Source of the DNA: Bacteroidales bacterium
GTDB lineage: Bacteria > Bacteroidota > Bacteroidia > Bacteroidales > WCHB1-69
Direction of reading: 5' to 3'
NCBI GenBank assembly: GCA_024400875.1
Contig: JAKSMB010000009.1
Span: 1-45,850, forward strand
Length of the DNA stretch: 45,850 nt
The position numbers and the translations under genes are program-made. Of the stretch, positions 33,452 through 40,136 are shown piece by piece; position 1 is the first letter of the stretch; the number at the start of each line of letters is the position of its first letter. The notes under the pieces are model-generated. The model saw only the letters and a program-made list of their open reading frames with translations, was not told the origin of the DNA and ran no database searches.

Positions 33452-34087
33452 TTACTTCACGCGACGACCTGTAAAGTCATACAAGTCACCATTACGTTCA
33501 ATGTAAACAACGCCATTGATGACAACTTTGCGAGTTGTAGAAGCGTTTTCCATATTACGATCTTGGATACCAACATTAGCACCTACAGTAATTGCAGCGT
33601 TAGGAGTTGCGTTATAATAAACTTTATCCCAAACAACGTTATTACCTTCGCGGTGAATCTTAGCGAAAGAGTAGTAAGATTGGCCAGAAACCGTATATTT
33701 GAAACCAACGTAAGAAGCTGTTGTGCTAATTTCGTTAATATCGTTGATATAGCCATCACCATAGCCACCTGTTGCGGTGCTGCTATTAATCACGTCACCA
33801 GCATTCAAGAGACGGAGAACATCCCAAGAATCGCCATCGATAACGAGTTGGATTTTAGAATCTGAATATTCGAGAGAAGATTTGCCACAAGCGTTTCCTG
33901 AGAAATCATAGCCATCTTTGATAGCGATTTCGAGATTGCCGTCATTGTTAAAATCGATACCGTATACGGTTGTGGTGTTGCCTGACCAGTCGGTATAGTT
34001 ACCTTGACCAAGGGTAGCGGGAGTAACCTGTGCAAAAGTGAAAGATGCAACCAGGAGAAGCATTACTAAAAAGGAGATTTTTTTCAT
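33452..34087 (-). CDS. Small secreted protein with T9SS-like C-terminal tail
   Basis: A 211-residue protein with a signal peptide (1-20, cleavage after FTFAQ). Near residue 45 it has an acidic Asp/Asn-rich loop (GIDFNNDGNLEIAI) like the calcium-binding loops of FG-GAP or dockerin-type repeats. A second Gly/Asp-rich stretch is GGYGDGYINDINEI. The last 26 residues (RKVVINGVVYIERNG, DLYDFTGRRVK) match the short C-terminal pattern 'K.I.nG.iyI.r.G..Yd..GrrV' common in secreted Bacteroidales proteins. I read this as a type IX secretion sorting tail; the inference is from pattern alone. Enzymatic activity is not evident. It has its own promoter (34124-34131) and terminator. Confidence 0.75.
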   Translation of the reverse strand: MKKISFLVMLLLVASFTFAQVTPATLGQGNYTDWSGNTTTVYGIDFNNDGNLEIAIKDGYDFSGNACGKSSLEYSDSKIQLVIDGDSWDVLRLLNAGDVINSSTATGGYGDGYINDINEISTTASYVGFKYTVSGQSYYSFAKIHREGNNVVWDKVYYNATPNAAITVGANVGIQDRNMENASTTRKVVINGVVYIERNGDLYDFTGRRVK

Positions 34088-34151: not shown

Positions 34152-34179
34152 AAAAAAGGGAACTCATAAAGTTCCCTTT
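34152..34179 (-). terminator. Terminator of the ribosomal protein operon
   Basis: On the minus strand AAAGGGAAC, a 7-base loop and GTTCCCTTT form a 9-bp stem followed by further T. It lies 27 bp after the rpsE stop and marks the operon end where rpmD would normally continue. Confidence 0.85.
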
Positions 34180-34206
34180 CATATTGAATCGCATTAAAGC
34201 GTCATA

Positions 34207-34725
34207 TTAGCCATTGAAAACTTTGTCAAGGCCTACTCCACGAACTTGAGCAACTGCATAAGCGTCGCGCATTTTGGAGAGAGCGTCGATAGTAGCTTTC
34301 ACTACGCTGTGAGGGTTAGAAGAACCTTTAGACTTAGCCAACACGTTCTTAACGCCAACACTTTCGAGAACGGCACGCATAGCACCACCAGCGATAACAC
34401 CGGTACCAGGAGCTGCAGGTTTCATGAACACGCGAGCACCGCTATATTTACCTTCTTGAGCGTGAGGAATAGTACCCTTAAGGATAGGAACTTGGATAAG
34501 GTTTTTCTTAGCATCTTCTGTACCTTTAGAGATAGCAGTAGAAACTTCGCGAGCTTTACCAAGACCATAACCTACGATACCGTTTTCATTACCAACCACC
34601 ATAATGGCAGCGAAGCTGAAAATACGACCACCCTTGGTGACTTTTACAACTCTGTTTACAGCAACCATTCTCTCTTTGAGTTCAAGGTCAGCTGCTTTAA
34701 CTTTCTTTAAATTTACGTTTGCCAT
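34207..34725 (-). CDS. rpsE: 30S ribosomal protein S5
   Basis: It has 172 residues. The N-terminal double-stranded RNA-binding domain carries the S5 signature ([21 protein letters not shown], then [10 protein letters not shown]). The C-terminal domain includes [18 protein letters not shown] and [16 protein letters not shown]5 sits on the back of the 30S body and affects decoding accuracy. It is the last gene of this operon, 11 bp after rplR. Normally rpmD, rplO and secY would follow; here a terminator and an unrelated secreted-protein gene do. Confidence 0.97.
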
Positions 34726-34736
34726 TTTCTTGATGA

Positions 34737-35096
34737 TTAAAATTTGAGACCAGCTTCTCTAGCTGCTTCAGCTAAAGATTTAATTCTACCATGATACAAG
34801 TAACCGTTACGATCGAAAACAACTTCGTTGATGCCAGCAGCGATAGCGCGAGCGGCGATTTCTTTACCAACGAGAGCTGACTTTTCGCATTTGGTAACTT
34901 TTTGTTCAGCGATGCTAGCGATCTTTGAAGAAGCGGATGCTACAGTAACACCAGCAACGTCGTCAATCAACTGCACATAGATATCGCGGTTGCTTCTGAA
35001 CACGGACAATCTCGGGCGATTAGGAGTACCGCTGACGATTTTACGTACGCGGTTTTTAATCCTTTTTCTTCTATATTCTTTTTTATTGTAAGCCAT
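34737..35096 (-). CDS. rplR: 50S ribosomal protein L18
   Basis: It has 119 residues. The basic N-terminus ([18 protein letters not shown]) and the blocks [20 protein letters not shown] and [24 protein letters not shown] are the L18 pattern. L18 binds 5S rRNA with L5 in the central protuberance. It lies between rplF (18 bp) and rpsE (11 bp), the standard spc order. Confidence 0.97.
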
Positions 35097-35114
35097 AATA
35101 ATAATTTTACAGGA

Positions 35115-35675
35115 TTATTTTTCAGCTGATTTACCAGCTTTCTTTCTAACGACTTCACCTTCGAAGCGGATACCTTTACCTTTGTAAGGTTCAGGTTTTC
35201 TATAAGAGCGGATCTTATTAGCCACTTGACCGAGTAATTGTTTGTCGATACTGCTCAAGATAATGACAGGGCTTTTACCTTTTTCATTGATAGTTTGAAC
35301 AGAGATCTCGTTTGGGAAATCGAACAAAATGTTGTGTGAATAACCTAAGCCCATATCGAGTTGGTGTTCGCCTTTAGCTTCAGCTTTATAACCAACGCCG
35401 ATAACTTCCAACTTAATGGTAAAGCCTTGGGAAACGCCTGTTACCATATTGTTGATGAGGGCTCTGTAAAGACCATGCATTGCTTTGTCGCGTTTTTGGT
35501 CTGTTGGGCGAGTCAAATGGAGGTTGCCGTCTTCAATGTTGAGTTCGATACGAGGGTCAACATATTGAGTAAGTTCACCTTTCGGGCCTTTTACGGTTAC
35601 GATGTTAGACTTTTCGTCTCTTTTAATTTCTACGCCGCTTGGGATAGCGATTTGTAATTTACCTATTCTTGACAT
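35115..35675 (-). CDS. rplF: 50S ribosomal protein L6
   Basis: It has 186 residues. It starts MSRIGKLQIAIPSGVEI, contains KGPKGELTQ and ends with the L6 signature EPYKGKGIRFEGEVVRKKAGK. It binds 23S rRNA near the factor-binding site. Unusually for this organism, the start is preceded by a perfect AGGAGG Shine-Dalgarno sequence at 35683-35688, 7 bases before the ATG. It lies 14 bp after rpsH. Confidence 0.97.
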   Translation of the reverse strand: MSRIGKLQIAIPSGVEIKRDEKSNIVTVKGPKGELTQYVDPRIELNIEDGNLHLTRPTDQKRDKAMHGLYRALINNMVTGVSQGFTIKLEVIGVGYKAEAKGEHQLDMGLGYSHNILFDFPNEISVQTINEKGKSPVIILSSIDKQLLGQVANKIRSYRKPEPYKGKGIRFEGEVVRKKAGKSAEK

Positions 35676-35682
35676 AACAATT

Positions 35683-35688
35683 CCTCCT
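35683..35688 (-). promoter_or_regulatory. Strong Shine-Dalgarno sequence before rplF
   Basis: AGGAGG on the minus strand with 7-base spacing to the rplF ATG. Nearly all other starts in this window lack such a site, as expected in Bacteroidota. Confidence 0.75.
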
Positions 35689-35689
35689 A

Positions 35690-36088
35690 TTAACTAATGT
35701 AACAAATGACTTCACCACCAACGTTTTGAGCTTTAGCTTCCTTATCGGTCATCATACCGTGAGAAGTAGAGATGATAGCGATGCCGAGGCCGTTCATAAC
35801 GGAAGGCAATTCATCTACACCAGCATACTTACGGAGACCTGGACGGCTAACGCGTTGCAATGTGGAAATGGCGGATTGTTTAGTTGCAGGATGATATTTC
35901 AAAGCGATTTTGATCATCTTTGGGTGAACATCATCTACAAACTTATAATTGAGAATATAACCTTTTTCAAAGAGAATTTTTGTAATAGCTCTTTTCTCGT
36001 TAGAGGCAGGGATTTCCACTACCTTATGATTAGCGCGGATGGCGTTTCTCAAACGAGTCAAATAATCTGATATTGGATCGGTATTCAT
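35690..36088 (-). CDS. rpsH: 30S ribosomal protein S8
   Basis: It has 132 residues. It starts with TDPISDYLTRLRNAI and ends with the S8 signature GIAIISTSHGMMTDKEAKAQNVGGEVICYI. S8 binds helix 21 of 16S rRNA and, in Escherichia coli, represses the spc operon by binding its mRNA. Whether that control exists here cannot be read. It lies 23 bp after rpsN. Confidence 0.97.
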   Translation of the reverse strand: MNTDPISDYLTRLRNAIRANHKVVEIPASNEKRAITKILFEKGYILNYKFVDDVHPKMIKIALKYHPATKQSAISTLQRVSRPGLRKYAGVDELPSVMNGLGIAIISTSHGMMTDKEAKAQNVGGEVICYIS

Positions 36089-36111
36089 ACTGTAATCTTC
36101 TTAATTTAATG

Positions 36112-36411
36112 TTACCAACTTGCTTTTTTAACGCCTGGAAGCAAACCTGCCATAGCCATTTCTCTGAAATCGATACGAGAGAGGCCAAATTGACGCATAT
36201 AACCTTTTGGACGGCCGGACAATTTGCAGCGGTTGTGCATTCTGATAGGATTAGAGTTTGGAGGAAGTTTTTGGAGGGCGATGTCAGCAGCTCTTTTTGC
36301 ATCATAATCATCACCGTTCATGATCTTCTTCAACTCAGCACGTTTTGCACTATATTTAGCAACTAATTTTGCTCTTTTTACTTCTCTAGCTTTTAATGAT
36401 TCTTTTGCCAT
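36112..36411 (-). CDS. rpsN: 30S ribosomal protein S14, zinc-free long form
   Basis: It has 99 residues. The signature [20 protein letters not shown] and the C-terminal LPGVKKASW identify S14. It is the long form with a single cysteine, so it lacks the CxxC pairs of the short zinc-binding paralogue and should not depend on zinc. It lies 2 bp after rplE and 23 bp before rpsH. Confidence 0.97.
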
Positions 36412-36413
36412 AA

Positions 36414-36968
36414 CTATTTTTGATTTTTAAATGGTAAGCCAAACTCTTTCAATAATGCAAGACATTCTTTATCATTTTGAGCTGTGGTAACGAATGTAAT
36501 ATCCATACCGTTGATTTTAGCTACCTTATCGATATCGATTTCTGGGAAAATGATTTGTTCTGGGATACCGAGGGTATAGTTACCTCTACCATCGAAACCT
36601 TTGTCGCTGATACCTCTGAAGTCGCGGATACGAGGGATGGAAACAGATACGAGTCTGTCCAAGAATTCGTACATACGGTCGCCGTGCAATGTTACGCGAA
36701 CACCGATAGGCATACCTTTTCTCAACTTGAAGTTAGAGATATCCTTTTTAGACTTGGTTGCTACAGCCTTTTGACCAGCAATCATTGTCATTTCCTGTAC
36801 ACCAGCGTCAATCAATTTCTTGTCGGCGATGCCGAACTTACCGAGACCTTGGTTAAGGCATATTTTGGTAATGCGAGGAACACGCATTACAGACTTGAAA
36901 CCGAATTGTTCCTTAAGAGCAGGAAGAACTTCGTTCTGATATTTTTCTTTGTATCTTGGTGTGTACAT
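36414..36968 (-). CDS. rplE: 50S ribosomal protein L5
   Basis: It has 184 residues. The blocks [48 protein letters not shown] and [18 protein letters not shown] are the L5 pattern. It contacts 5S rRNA and the P-site tRNA. Its ATG shares one base with the rplX stop (TAATG), so the two genes are coupled. A GGAG sequence lies a few bases upstream inside rplX. Confidence 0.97.
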
Positions 36969-37282
36969 TATTTGATCTCCTCTCCAGATTTTTTAGAATA
37001 TCTTACTAATTTACCTTTGTCATTCATTCTTCTACCTACGCGGGTAGCATTTCCTTTAGCGTCAACAACCATAAGGTTTGAAATGTGGATAGGGGCTTCT
37101 TTCTTAATAATGCCACCGTTTGGGTTTTTAGCATTTGGCTTGGTGCTTTTGGAAACCATATTGCAACCTTCAACCAAAGCCTTGCAATCGCCAGGGATTA
37201 CTTCAAGTACTTTACCTTGAGAACCTTTGCTCTCACCGGTAGTGACTTTCACGATGTCGCCTTTCTTGATTTTAAGTTTCAT
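36968..37282 (-). CDS. rplX: 50S ribosomal protein L24
   Basis: It has 104 residues from the ATG at 37282 ([13 protein letters not shown]). An upstream in-frame ATG at 37309 would add nine residues unlike the family and is rejected. The KOW motif is in [24 protein letters not shown]. Downstream come [21 protein letters not shown] and [21 protein letters not shown]. It is an early assembly initiator of the 50S subunit. A 69-bp gap separates it from rplN. Confidence 0.96.
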
Positions 37283-37351
37283 TGATTTAATTTTTTTAAT
37301 GTTTACCAATTGGTCTTTGTCAATTGTATATAAATATGATTATTTACTATA

Positions 37352-37720
37352 TTACAATACTTCCGGTGCCAAAGACACGATTTTCATGAACTGTTTTTCA
37401 CGCAATTCACGTGCAACAGGTCCAAAGATACGAGTACCGCGGAGTTCGTCTGTTGGGGTCAACAATACAACTGCGTTGTCATCGAACTTGATATAAGAAC
37501 CATCAGCTCTGCGTACGTGTCTTTTTGTACGTACAACAACAGCCTTGGATACGGTACCGGCTTTAACCTGACCGGAAGGGATGGCGCTCTTAATAGCAAC
37601 CACAATCTTATCGCCTACGGAAGCGTAACGTTTCTTTGTACCACCCAAAACACGGATACAGAGAACTTCTTTTGCGCCGCTGTTATCGGCAACTGCTAAT
37701 CTTGATTCTTGTTGTATCAT
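37352..37720 (-). CDS. rplN: 50S ribosomal protein L14
   Basis: It has 122 residues. It starts [19 protein letters not shown] and has the L14 signature in the [20 protein letters not shown] region, ending [21 protein letters not shown]. It forms part of the intersubunit bridge near L19. It lies 2 bp after rpsQ. Confidence 0.97.
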
Positions 37721-37722
37721 AA

Positions 37723-37977
37723 CTATTTAGCTCTTTCTAAGATTTCTACTAATCTCCAGCATTTGTTCTTTGACAAAGGTCTGGTTTCCATAATTCTAAC
37801 TCTATCACCGATATGGCATTCGTTCTTTTCGTCATGAGCCATAAATTTGGTGGAACGTTTAAGGAACTTACCATAGATAGGGTGTTTCATCTTGCGTTCA
37901 ACCAAGATTACGATAGATTTATCCATTTTGTCGCTTACTACGACACCTTCTCTCACTTTTCTATTGTTTCTTTCCAT
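37723..37977 (-). CDS. rpsQ: 30S ribosomal protein S17
   Basis: It has 84 residues. It is a small OB-fold protein with [36 protein letters not shown] and the signature [20 protein letters not shown]. It is a primary 16S rRNA binder. It lies 17 bp after rpmC and 2 bp before rplN. Confidence 0.97.
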
Positions 37978-37994
37978 AATAATCCGGTGATATA

Positions 37995-38192
37995 TTATTT
38001 ATTTTCTAATTCACGTTTACGCAATTCTGTCATCAATCTTGCGATTGTTCTGCGTTGTGCTCTAATTGATTGAGGATTTTCCAGTGGAGAGATAGCGTGG
38101 TTCAGCTTCATCTTAACGAGGTTTTCTTTTTCAACTGCCAATCTTTCCTTTACTTCTGGAGTGGTGAGTTCATTTATAACTGTCTGTTTCAT
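37995..38192 (-). CDS. rpmC: 50S ribosomal protein L29
   Basis: It has 65 residues forming two long helices. The conserved tail [20 protein letters not shown] and the block [19 protein letters not shown] identify L29, which sits beside the peptide exit tunnel. It lies 11 bp after rplP. Confidence 0.95.
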
Positions 38193-38203
38193 ATCTTCAA
38201 TAA

Positions 38204-38629
38204 TTAAATTTCTGCTGAATAATCTCTTCTTACGACAAATTTAGTATGAACTGGCAACTTTTGAGCACCAAGTCTCATTGCTTCCTTTGCCACTTCCATT
38301 GGAATGCCGTCGGCTTCGAAAAGAATACGGCCTGGGCTTACGCGAGCAGCGAAGAATTCAGGGGTACCCTTACCTTTACCCATACGGACACCTAAACCCT
38401 TAGCGGTAACAGGACGATCAGGGAAGATACGAATCCATAATTGACCCTCACGCTTCATCTCACGGGTGATAGCTTGACGGGCAGCTTCGATTTGGCGGGC
38501 ACTGATCCAACATTGATCAAGTGTTTTCAATGCAAATGAGCCGAATGAAATTTCAGCACCACGTTTGGTGATAGATTTCATTCTACCTTTCTGCGGCCTT
38601 CTGTATTTGGTCTTTTTCGGTTGTAACAT
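38204..38629 (-). CDS. rplP: 50S ribosomal protein L16
   Basis: It has 141 residues. It starts [17 protein letters not shown] and contains the L16 signatures ([20 protein letters not shown], then [22 protein letters not shown]). It lies near the A-site tRNA elbow. The 51-bp gap to rpsC upstream is one of the longer ones in the operon. Confidence 0.97.
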
Positions 38630-38680
38630 TGCTTTTTAAATGTTTATTAGTTATTATTAACCGGCATCTTGGCGTCGGTA

Positions 38681-39427
38681 TTAGTTATTATTTCTTCTGT
38701 TATTGCGTTGAGCGTCGCCACCTTTGCGTGGACCACGACCCATGCGTTTTTGTGGACCTTTAGAATCCTTACCAGCTTCGGTGAGGGTGAAAAGATCACG
38801 CTTGCCATATACGAAACCACGGCAGATCCATACCTTGATACCGATGCAACCGTAAGTTGTATGTGCTTCAACCAATGCATAGTCAATGTCAGCTCTCAAA
38901 GTGTGCAATGGAATACGACCTTCTTTGAAGTGTTCTGCACGTGCCATTTCAGCACCACCGAGACGACCAGATGCTGTAACCTTGATACCGTCAGCGTTTG
39001 CACGCATGGTTGATGAAACAGCAGTCTTGATAGCTTTCTTATAAGCTACACGGCCTTCGATTTGCTTTGCAATATTTTGAGCTACCAACTGAGCATCCAA
39101 ATCAGGACGTTTTACTTCAACGATGTTGATTTGAATTTCCTTGCTGGTGATAACCTTGAGTTCTTCTTTTACTTTGTCAACTTCTTGACCACCCTTACCG
39201 ATGATAAGACCTGGACGAGCGGTTAAGATAGTTACAGTGACAACCTTGAGAGTTCTTTCAATGTAAATTTTTGAGATACCGGCCTTTGAGAATTTAGCAT
39301 TTAAATACTTTCTAATTTTGTCGTCTTCGACAATCTTACTGGCGAAATTTTTGCCGCCGTACCAATTAGAATCCCAGCCTCTGACAATACCAAGGCGAAT
39401 GCCTACCGGATTTACTTTCTGACCCAT
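38681..39427 (-). CDS. rpsC: 30S ribosomal protein S3
   Basis: It has 248 residues. It starts [20 protein letters not shown]. The KH domain has the [18 protein letters not shown] loop. The C-terminal signature runs [12 protein letters not shown]. The tail is extended and very basic and Asn-rich ([18 protein letters not shown]). S3 lines the mRNA entry tunnel. It lies 11 bp after rplV. Confidence 0.97.
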
Positions 39428-39438
39428 ACTTGATTAAA

Positions 39439-39870
39439 TTAATTTTGTGATTCTGTATTTGTATTGTTATTTTCTTCGTTTCTGTCAGCGATCACCAACG
39501 TGATGTGGTTGGAACGTTTACGGATACGGTTTGCACGGCCTTGAGGAGCTGTACGGATACGTTTCAACATACGTCCGCCATCTACCATGATGGTCTTAAC
39601 ATAAAGATCTGCATTCTCCAAACGGGCACCTTCATTCTTAACTTGCCAGTTTGCAACTGCTGATTTCAAAAGCTTCAACAGCTTTTCTGCGGATTCTCTG
39701 CGACTATACTTCAATACACTCATTGCATAGTCTACATTCTTACCACGAATCACGTTTGCCATGATTCTGGTCTTACGCGGTGAGGTTGGATTATCCACTA
39801 ATCGTGCCATGTACACCGTTTTGTTCGCTTCTTTACGAGCATCTGCTGCTTGTTTTTTGCTTGCACTCAT
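39439..39870 (-). CDS. rplV: 50S ribosomal protein L22, first gene of the operon
   Basis: It has 143 residues. The L22 core is clear (ARLVDNPTSPRKTRIMANVIRG; then DLYVKTIMVDGGRMLKRIRTAPQGRANRIRKRSNHITLVI). It has a short added N-terminus rich in Lys and Ala and an Asn/Glu-rich tail. L22 extends a hairpin into the exit tunnel. In other Bacteroidota it follows rpsS inside the S10 operon. Here it is the promoter-proximal gene, with its own -7 box at 39968-39975 and the opposite-strand sugar kinase beyond. Confidence 0.97.
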   Translation of the reverse strand: MSASKKQAADARKEANKTVYMARLVDNPTSPRKTRIMANVIRGKNVDYAMSVLKYSRRESAEKLLKLLKSAVANWQVKNEGARLENADLYVKTIMVDGGRMLKRIRTAPQGRANRIRKRSNHITLVIADRNEENNNTNTESQN

Positions 39871-39967
39871 TTTACTTTTTCTCTTTGTTTATTTTTATAT
39901 TTATCTAATTATCAATGGTTTAAACGCCATTTCATTTGACAATCACCTTGTATTATCAAATTGGCGG

Positions 39968-39975
39968 CAAAAGTA
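39968..39975 (-). promoter_or_regulatory. Ribosomal operon promoter -7 box (TACTTTTG)
   Basis: A perfect TAnnTTTG followed by CCGCC on the minus strand, 97 bp before the rplV ATG. It shows that this ribosomal block is an independent transcription unit. Confidence 0.65.
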
Positions 39976-40128: not shown

Positions 40129-40136
40129 TATCTTTG
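40129..40136 (+). promoter_or_regulatory. ROK kinase promoter -7 box (TATCTTTG)
   Basis: A perfect TAnnTTTG followed by CACG, 18 bp before the ATG at 40155. It shows that the longer in-frame ATG at 40059 is not the start. Confidence 0.75.

Follow-up and report, generated by a model that had tools for sequence, protein, structure and literature searches.

Evidence for an ancient split of the S10-spc ribosomal superoperon in a clade of Bacteroidales

Ribosomal protein genes in the window

The genome of a Bacteroidales bacterium (assembly GCA_024400875.1) is a metagenome-assembled genome (MAG) of 1.13 Mb in 11 contigs, with an estimated completeness of 51.3%. One entire contig (C11; JAKSMB010000009.1, 45,850 nucleotides, hereafter the window) carries a 13-gene block of the S10-spc ribosomal superoperon, detached from its usual upstream and downstream parts. 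Comparison with related genomes makes it highly probable that the superoperon was split long ago in a Bacteroidales clade of at least ten genera and now exists as independent modules; a gain of RNA leaders by two of these modules is more tentative.

Open reading frames (ORFs) and tblastn agreed that the minus strand from 34207 to 39870 holds rplV-rpsC-rplP-rpmC-rpsQ-rplN-rplX-rplE-rpsN-rpsH-rplF-rplR-rpsE, exactly the genes, in the canonical order, named in a preliminary description of this DNA. That description also held that the upstream (rpsJ to rpsS) and downstream (rpmD-rplO-secY) parts are missing from the window, where tblastn with the remaining reference genes, from rpsL to eno, likewise found nothing more. 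The interval it assigned to the block, 34152..39975, matches the limits of the transcription unit almost exactly:

39968..39975, minus strand: -7 promoter box of the rplV operon, TACTTTTG (pattern TAnnTTTG)
39871..39968, minus strand: rplV operon 5' leader region, some 98 nt measured from the final base of the -7 box
39439..39870, minus strand: rplV (L22), ORF and tblastn
38681..39427, minus strand: rpsC (S3), ORF and tblastn
38204..38629, minus strand: rplP (L16), ORF and tblastn
37995..38192, minus strand: rpmC (L29), ORF; own sequence served as tblastn reference
37723..37977, minus strand: rpsQ (S17), ORF; own sequence served as tblastn reference
37352..37720, minus strand: rplN (L14), ORF and tblastn
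36968..37309, minus strand: rplX (L24), ORF and tblastn; the true start may lie downstream of the listed TTG
36414..36968, minus strand: rplE (L5), ORF and tblastn
36112..36411, minus strand: rpsN (S14), ORF and tblastn
35690..36088, minus strand: rpsH (S8), ORF and tblastn
35115..35675, minus strand: rplF (L6), ORF and tblastn
34737..35096, minus strand: rplR (L18), ORF and tblastn
34207..34725, minus strand: rpsE (S5), last gene of the block, ORF and tblastn
34152..34179, minus strand: intrinsic terminator after rpsE, from folding

Two of the genes we take to be rpmC and rpsQ from their position and sequence. The pattern TAnnTTTG, the Bacteroidota-type -7 consensus, occurs as TACTTTTG 105 to 98 bases 5' of the rplV start codon, and the -33 element of this promoter is weak in the window, with CTG where many relatives show TTG (by eye). 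At the other end, a 62-base stretch around 34152-34179 folds at -20.2 kcal/mol (z -5.2), a value that none of 200 shuffles equalled, in keeping with the strong terminator proposed there. With a putative promoter and terminator of its own at its ends, the block is predicted to be an independent operon.

The upstream side had been described as a -7 box and a divergent sugar kinase gene, and both were found, the kinase belonging to the ROK family (PF00480) and being preceded by a second box of the same type, TATCTTTG (40129-40136, plus strand; by eye). The downstream neighbour at 33452-34087, described as a secreted-protein gene, begins with what by eye resembles a signal peptide, and a Pfam search gave no match to it. 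Between 33000 and 41000, an Rfam search with E up to 1 returned one L20_leader match below threshold (23.4 bits, where the gathering score is 58.7), which overlaps the terminator and was taken as chance. A search of the host genome for the missing parts found no S19, SecY or S10, which is uninformative because the MAG is only 51% complete; the question was therefore decided on its relatives.

Gene order in related genomes

Genes were mapped by tblastn on stretches around L22, S19 and SecY and, in some, rpsJ, rplC and rpmD, with L22-centred stretches taken also from other genera of the family. The window's genus is called g1 and the other genera g26 to g41, while G and L numbers denote genomes and loci. 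A junction was scored only when at least 300 bases were available past it or both genes were present; shorter stretches were omitted, as were stretches too short for the promoter and terminator counts below.

In the first 35 g1 genomes, L22 and S19 were both detected in 29, on separate contigs in 28 and 12.7 kb apart in the remaining one (G028), whereas the two genes lay less than 150 bases apart in 23/23 genomes of the order's other families that have both. The rpsS/rplV junction (S19/L22) was broken in 36/36 g1 genomes, 27 of them seen from both sides, and in 25/25 genomes of nine other split genera, 3 seen from both sides; it was joined in 18/18 genomes of an intact comparison set (15 from the family and 3 outgroups). 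The rpsE/rpmD junction (S5/L30) was broken in 34/34 g1 genomes and in all 26 genomes of eight other split genera (g41 was not seen), and joined in 16/16 intact genomes. A third junction, rpsJ/rplC, was broken in 27/27 g1 genomes and in 28/32 genomes of other split genera, the four joined cases being two genomes each of g40 and g41, while 16/18 intact genomes kept it joined. The seams between the classical operons persisted: the S10/spc seam (rpsQ/rplN) was joined in 31/31 g1 genomes and 24/24 others, and the spc/alpha seam (infA/rpsM), read in g1 among the split genera, in 28/28.

These breaks define ten split genera (g1, g26, g28, g29, g31, g34, g35, g38, g40 and g41). Intact are g27, g36, g37 and g39, likewise g33 over the reach of the contig in its one genome, and g30 except at rpsJ/rplC in two of its three genomes. 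Among 75 loci outside the split group, drawn from the best 80 of 575 relatives, rpsS/rplV was joined in all 72 judgeable loci, rpsE/rpmD in all 67 and rpsJ/rplC in 63 of 65. With the 23 genomes of other families, these counts substantiate, at rpsS/rplV, the earlier statement that the cluster is contiguous in other Bacteroidota. The two exceptions are both Apibacter loci (L112, L114) in which the search found no rpsJ in the roughly 6.9 kb upstream of rplC; they share this cut with the split clade but keep rpsS/rplV and rpsE/rpmD joined.

Several lineages differ in detail. Two g30 loci, L250 (G073) and L251 (G074), have about 1.5 and 0.65 kb 5' of rplC without rpsJ and the rest of the cluster joined, probably a further rpsJ/rplC break. 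Genus g32 (G077; L254, L290), nested in the intact clade, has different breaks, rplW/rplB and rpsC/rplP. Loci of g41 (L281, L291, L299) have an additional break at rplN/rplX, and their rpsJ is detached from fusA. In g40, the run from rpsJ-rplC to rpsS still lies downstream of str. The rpsS-rpmD scar that simple excision of the block would leave was not seen; in both g40 genomes read, the gene after rpsS lies on the opposite strand and by eye is asparaginase-like.

We refer to rplC to rpsS as module A, the 13 genes rplV to rpsE of the window as module B, and rpmD-rplO-secY-map-infA-rpsM-rpsK-rpsD-rpoA-rplQ, as read in g1, as module C. Nearest ORFs in g1, whose families depend on a crude ORF caller, fell into 14 families in 30 loci 5' of rplV and 22 families in 33 loci 3' of rpsE. 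Flanks vary this widely even inside one genus, so the modules move as units together with their signals. Now and then they are adjacent in new orders, with C then B at L156 (G002), C then A at L323 (G104), and C divergent from A at L315 (G068).

Promoters and terminators at the cut ends

Within 220 bases 5' of rplV, TAnnTTTGC was present in 55/55 split-clade genomes and 0/18 intact ones (shuffles 1.2 and 0.3). The same box preceded rpmD in 48/48 split-clade against 1/16 intact genomes, and rplC in 54/58 against 2/18, the four rplC genes that lack it being those of g40 and g41 that retain the junction with rpsJ. Terminator-like sites were found within 120 bases 3' of rpsE in 52/56 split-clade and 0/16 intact genomes, and 3' of rpsS in 32/36 and 0/18. 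They were scarcer 3' of rpsJ (only 4/14, against 0/16 intact) and 3' of rplQ (7/26, against 3/9 intact). Because the promoters are separate, the loss of co-regulation among the separated parts predicted in the preliminary description is likely.

The rplV box and first bases look alike across all ten split genera, mostly TATTTTTGC followed by two bases, CC and AATTT, a resemblance that favours a single origin. The leaders of the three modules, including the rplV leader at 39871-39968 of the window, share a loose motif, AA-N(3-6)-(C/T)TGA-N(1-4)-TCA, which occurred in 20/55 rplV, 6/54 rplC and 31/34 rpmD leaders, compared with 0.8, 1.6 and 0.5 in mononucleotide shuffles.

Candidate RNA leaders of rplC and rpmD

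Leaders were aligned for each of the three modules. The rplC alignment (A1) contained 26 of 27 g1 leaders, including L145:7621-7713 and excluding L157 as a g34-like contaminant. These 26 sequences form three nested helices in which 12 of 16 pairs carry double changes, with 96 double-change cells against 38.4 in shuffled alignments (0/500), and the leader scored 0.574 against at most 0.188 when slid (g1 only). A single alignment of rplC leaders across all genera gave no structure, and a model of the g1 leader (R1) searched against 57 sources does not transfer across genera: its 5 matches, all at E 0.25 or worse, were two at g38 rplC leaders, one 5' of rpsL in the intact g37 and two in g32. For rplV (alignment A3, the 26 of 30 g1 leaders under 110 nt), RNAalifold predicted no pair and the leader is without consensus structure.

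The rpmD alignment (A2) used 30 of 34 collected leaders from g1, g34, g31 and g40, including L146:8621-8808; four from g29 were excluded by choice, and five more g1 leaders escaped the collection pattern and matched model R2 later. Long invariant tracts, AACT and TTTCACGGA among them, recur across the 30 leaders together with a helix, and a terminator hairpin lies some 60 bases 5' of rpmD; the terminator helices are 96-98% paired, with 5 double-change cells. The conserved terminator lies between promoter and rpmD in relatives, as expected of a transcription attenuator. A model of the 5' part of this leader matched 52/104 family genomes at one site each, in 6/17 genera, all of them split (33/40 g1, 9 g34, 5 g41, 3 g40, one g31 and one g29). 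Where the position of secY was known, 40/41 matches sat 1.04-1.13 kb upstream of it; in the exception, G126 (g41), the element (G126:C53:4236-4316) and secY are on different contigs.

Rfam 15 gave no match to either leader, with six g1 loci searched at gathering score and, from other genera, six short loci searched with E up to 1. None of the candidate RNAs in the available text of PMC2864571 lies at these ribosomal genes. The TAACTGA repeats of Beggiatoaceae, tandem repeats according to the available text of PMC4679880, were judged unrelated.

Modules A and C appear to have gained new RNA leaders. Feedback control by them is a tentative proposal, with candidate ligands guessed from operon content. 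It is possible, though we would not put it at even odds, that splitting was accompanied by the birth of lineage-specific feedback RNAs, the rplC leader responding to L4 or another protein of its module and the rpmD leader to S4, L15 or another.

Origin of the breaks

A tree of 18 concatenated ribosomal proteins was built, omitting G008, G019, G020, G026 and G079 for having too few block genes; the tree for the Shimodaira-Hasegawa-like approximate likelihood ratio test (SH-aLRT) kept 12 of the 32 g1 rows of the FastTree tree. The ten split genera form a single clade (FastTree support 1.00; SH-aLRT 100), which is shown directly, as are the gene order, the breaks and the conserved promoter- and terminator-like sites. 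The rpsS/rplV break requires one change on this tree, and g32 is placed beside g30 inside the intact clade.

Frequent decay of gene order could instead have produced the breaks many times independently, which we consider unlikely. In favour of such decay, g32, from within the intact clade, has breaks of its own, g41 has the extra rplN/rplX break, rpsJ/rplC is open, as seen from one side, in 2/3 g30 genomes and in the two Apibacter loci, and module flanks are highly variable even inside g1. However, the cuts at rpsS/rplV and rpsE/rpmD are exactly the same throughout, the genera that share them make up one clade and their rplV promoters look alike, and the rpmD leader is common to g1, g34 and some of the genera nested in the remainder. 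Independent origin fits rpsJ/rplC better than the other two junctions.

We infer that a single ancestral event, or a close series of events, lies behind the rpsS/rplV and rpsE/rpmD breaks, and that each module now has its expression set separately. In the proposed course of events, the str-S10-spc-alpha superoperon of the common ancestor would have been cut within S10, between rpsS and rplV, and within spc, between rpsE and rpmD. This would have released module B from an upstream module, rpsJ-rplC-rplD-rplW-rplB-rpsS, which in g40 is still attached to str, and from module C downstream. A third cut, between rpsJ and rplC, would leave rpsJ closing the str operon across most of the clade, and may date from a single event following the divergence of g40 and g41, or from repeated events. 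The modules would each have turned into an operon in its own right, driven by a promoter at the new 5' end; terminators would have formed at the new ends rpsE and rpsS, and the modules would then have dispersed. Module A may further have gained the structured rplC leader, with L4, which it encodes, as candidate ligand, and module C the rpmD leader with its conserved terminator, for which S4 or L15, both encoded there, are candidates.

Several observations weigh against this account. Nearly all of the genomes look like draft MAGs in tens to hundreds of contigs, and the rpsS/rplV break is one-sided in 9/36 g1 genomes and in 22/25 genomes of the other split genera. The rpsJ/rplC break requires 2 changes on the tree, since g40 and g41, with rpsJ-rplC joined, are nested in a group (SH-aLRT 99) that lacks g1 and g34, both broken there. 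A single clade of the genera broken at rpsJ/rplC was not rejected in an approximately unbiased (AU) test run after the tree was seen (p 0.375); therefore g40 may retain an intermediate stage, or else rpsJ/rplC broke repeatedly. Modules C and B are directly adjacent in the g1 genome G002 with C first, the reverse of the ancestral order, which may be an intermediate or a re-fusion. As for the leaders, an antiterminator candidate for rpmD (GYAACT paired with the 5' arm of the terminator) has 94% of its cells paired and zero double changes, no better than shuffles. At E 0.001 the rpmD-leader model had no match in g26, g28, g35, g38 and 4/5 g29 genomes, although weaker matches are present in g28 and g29, and it missed 7/40 g1 genomes, the window's among them, in none of which SecY was found.

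An artefact of assembly or binning, in which contig joins or ends mimic a break, would be easy to suspect in an 11-contig, 51% complete MAG whose window is one whole contig, but is refuted for the clade because the breaks recur: every g1 genome that offers evidence shows the same cuts, as do other genera, the sequence past the cut is different for 300 bases or more, and nearly all genomes have promoter- and terminator-like sites at the cuts. The preliminary description was right to prefer an old rearrangement over a join error on the strength of signals at both breaks, and the comparison of related genomes that it called for found both breaks common to the genus and the other split genera; what it overlooked was the third break at rpsJ/rplC, the spread across a clade, and the leaders.

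It is equally far-fetched that the modules are extra partial copies beside an intact superoperon elsewhere in each genome. Second copies were seen, with two L22 in G009, two S19 in G002 and two S5 matches in G003, both at contig ends, but L22, S19, S5 and SecY were otherwise single wherever found in the first 35 g1 genomes, and a contiguous rpsJ-rplQ cluster was seen in no g1 genome. The second L22 of G009, found where a 3.7 kb contig ends, has a score similar to those of L22 from other families, and one of the two S19 contigs of G002 has an rplC leader nearly identical to that of g34, so that both look like contamination.

Significance and comparison with known systems

Why the cluster persists is debated, with shared regulation, position near the origin and history as the suggested reasons. 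Here a whole clade lives without an intact cluster while close family relatives retain it, a natural experiment on cluster retention in which split and intact genomes form matched pairs for tests of dosage, assembly and regulation. A possible route by which operons can split yet stay regulated is suggested by the changes in promoters and leaders that accompanied the cuts. If the proposal of feedback leaders is true, the fragments regained autogenous control of their own, and the clade would show how ribosomal leaders arise. An rpsJ that closes the str operon, separate from rplC, is also found in cyanobacteria and plastids.

The S10-spc-alpha cluster is among the best-conserved bacterial gene orders, and in the available text of a survey of its rearrangements (PMC8046335), 75/115 separate whole operons, leaving them intact, with spc and alpha joined in every genome; the term 'bacteroid' does not occur in the available main text. 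As in that study, the same cluster is broken, the breaks can be traced on trees and operons then separate. Unlike the cases described there, both shared cuts lie inside S10 and spc, while the S10/spc seam and, in g1, the spc/alpha seam remain joined; the split clade therefore differs from the known breakage.

The candidate leaders resemble those in the available part of PMC7247131 (Eckert and Weinberg 2020) in being structured 5' leaders that precede a ribosomal protein operon. For Bacteroidia, Table 1 of that paper lists an L13 leader as well as an S4 leader upstream of rpsD, and Archaeoglobi alone are given an L4 leader upstream of rplC; unlike the leaders described here, none of its Bacteroidia entries precedes rplC or rpmD.

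Asgard archaea, according to the accessible text of PMC10833476, have a 14-gene core cluster of S10 and spc genes plus a separate 4-gene one. As in the split clade, a large block from L22 to S5 is kept together, apart from the rest, but the big Asgard cluster, from a different domain, includes S19 and runs on into L30 and L15.

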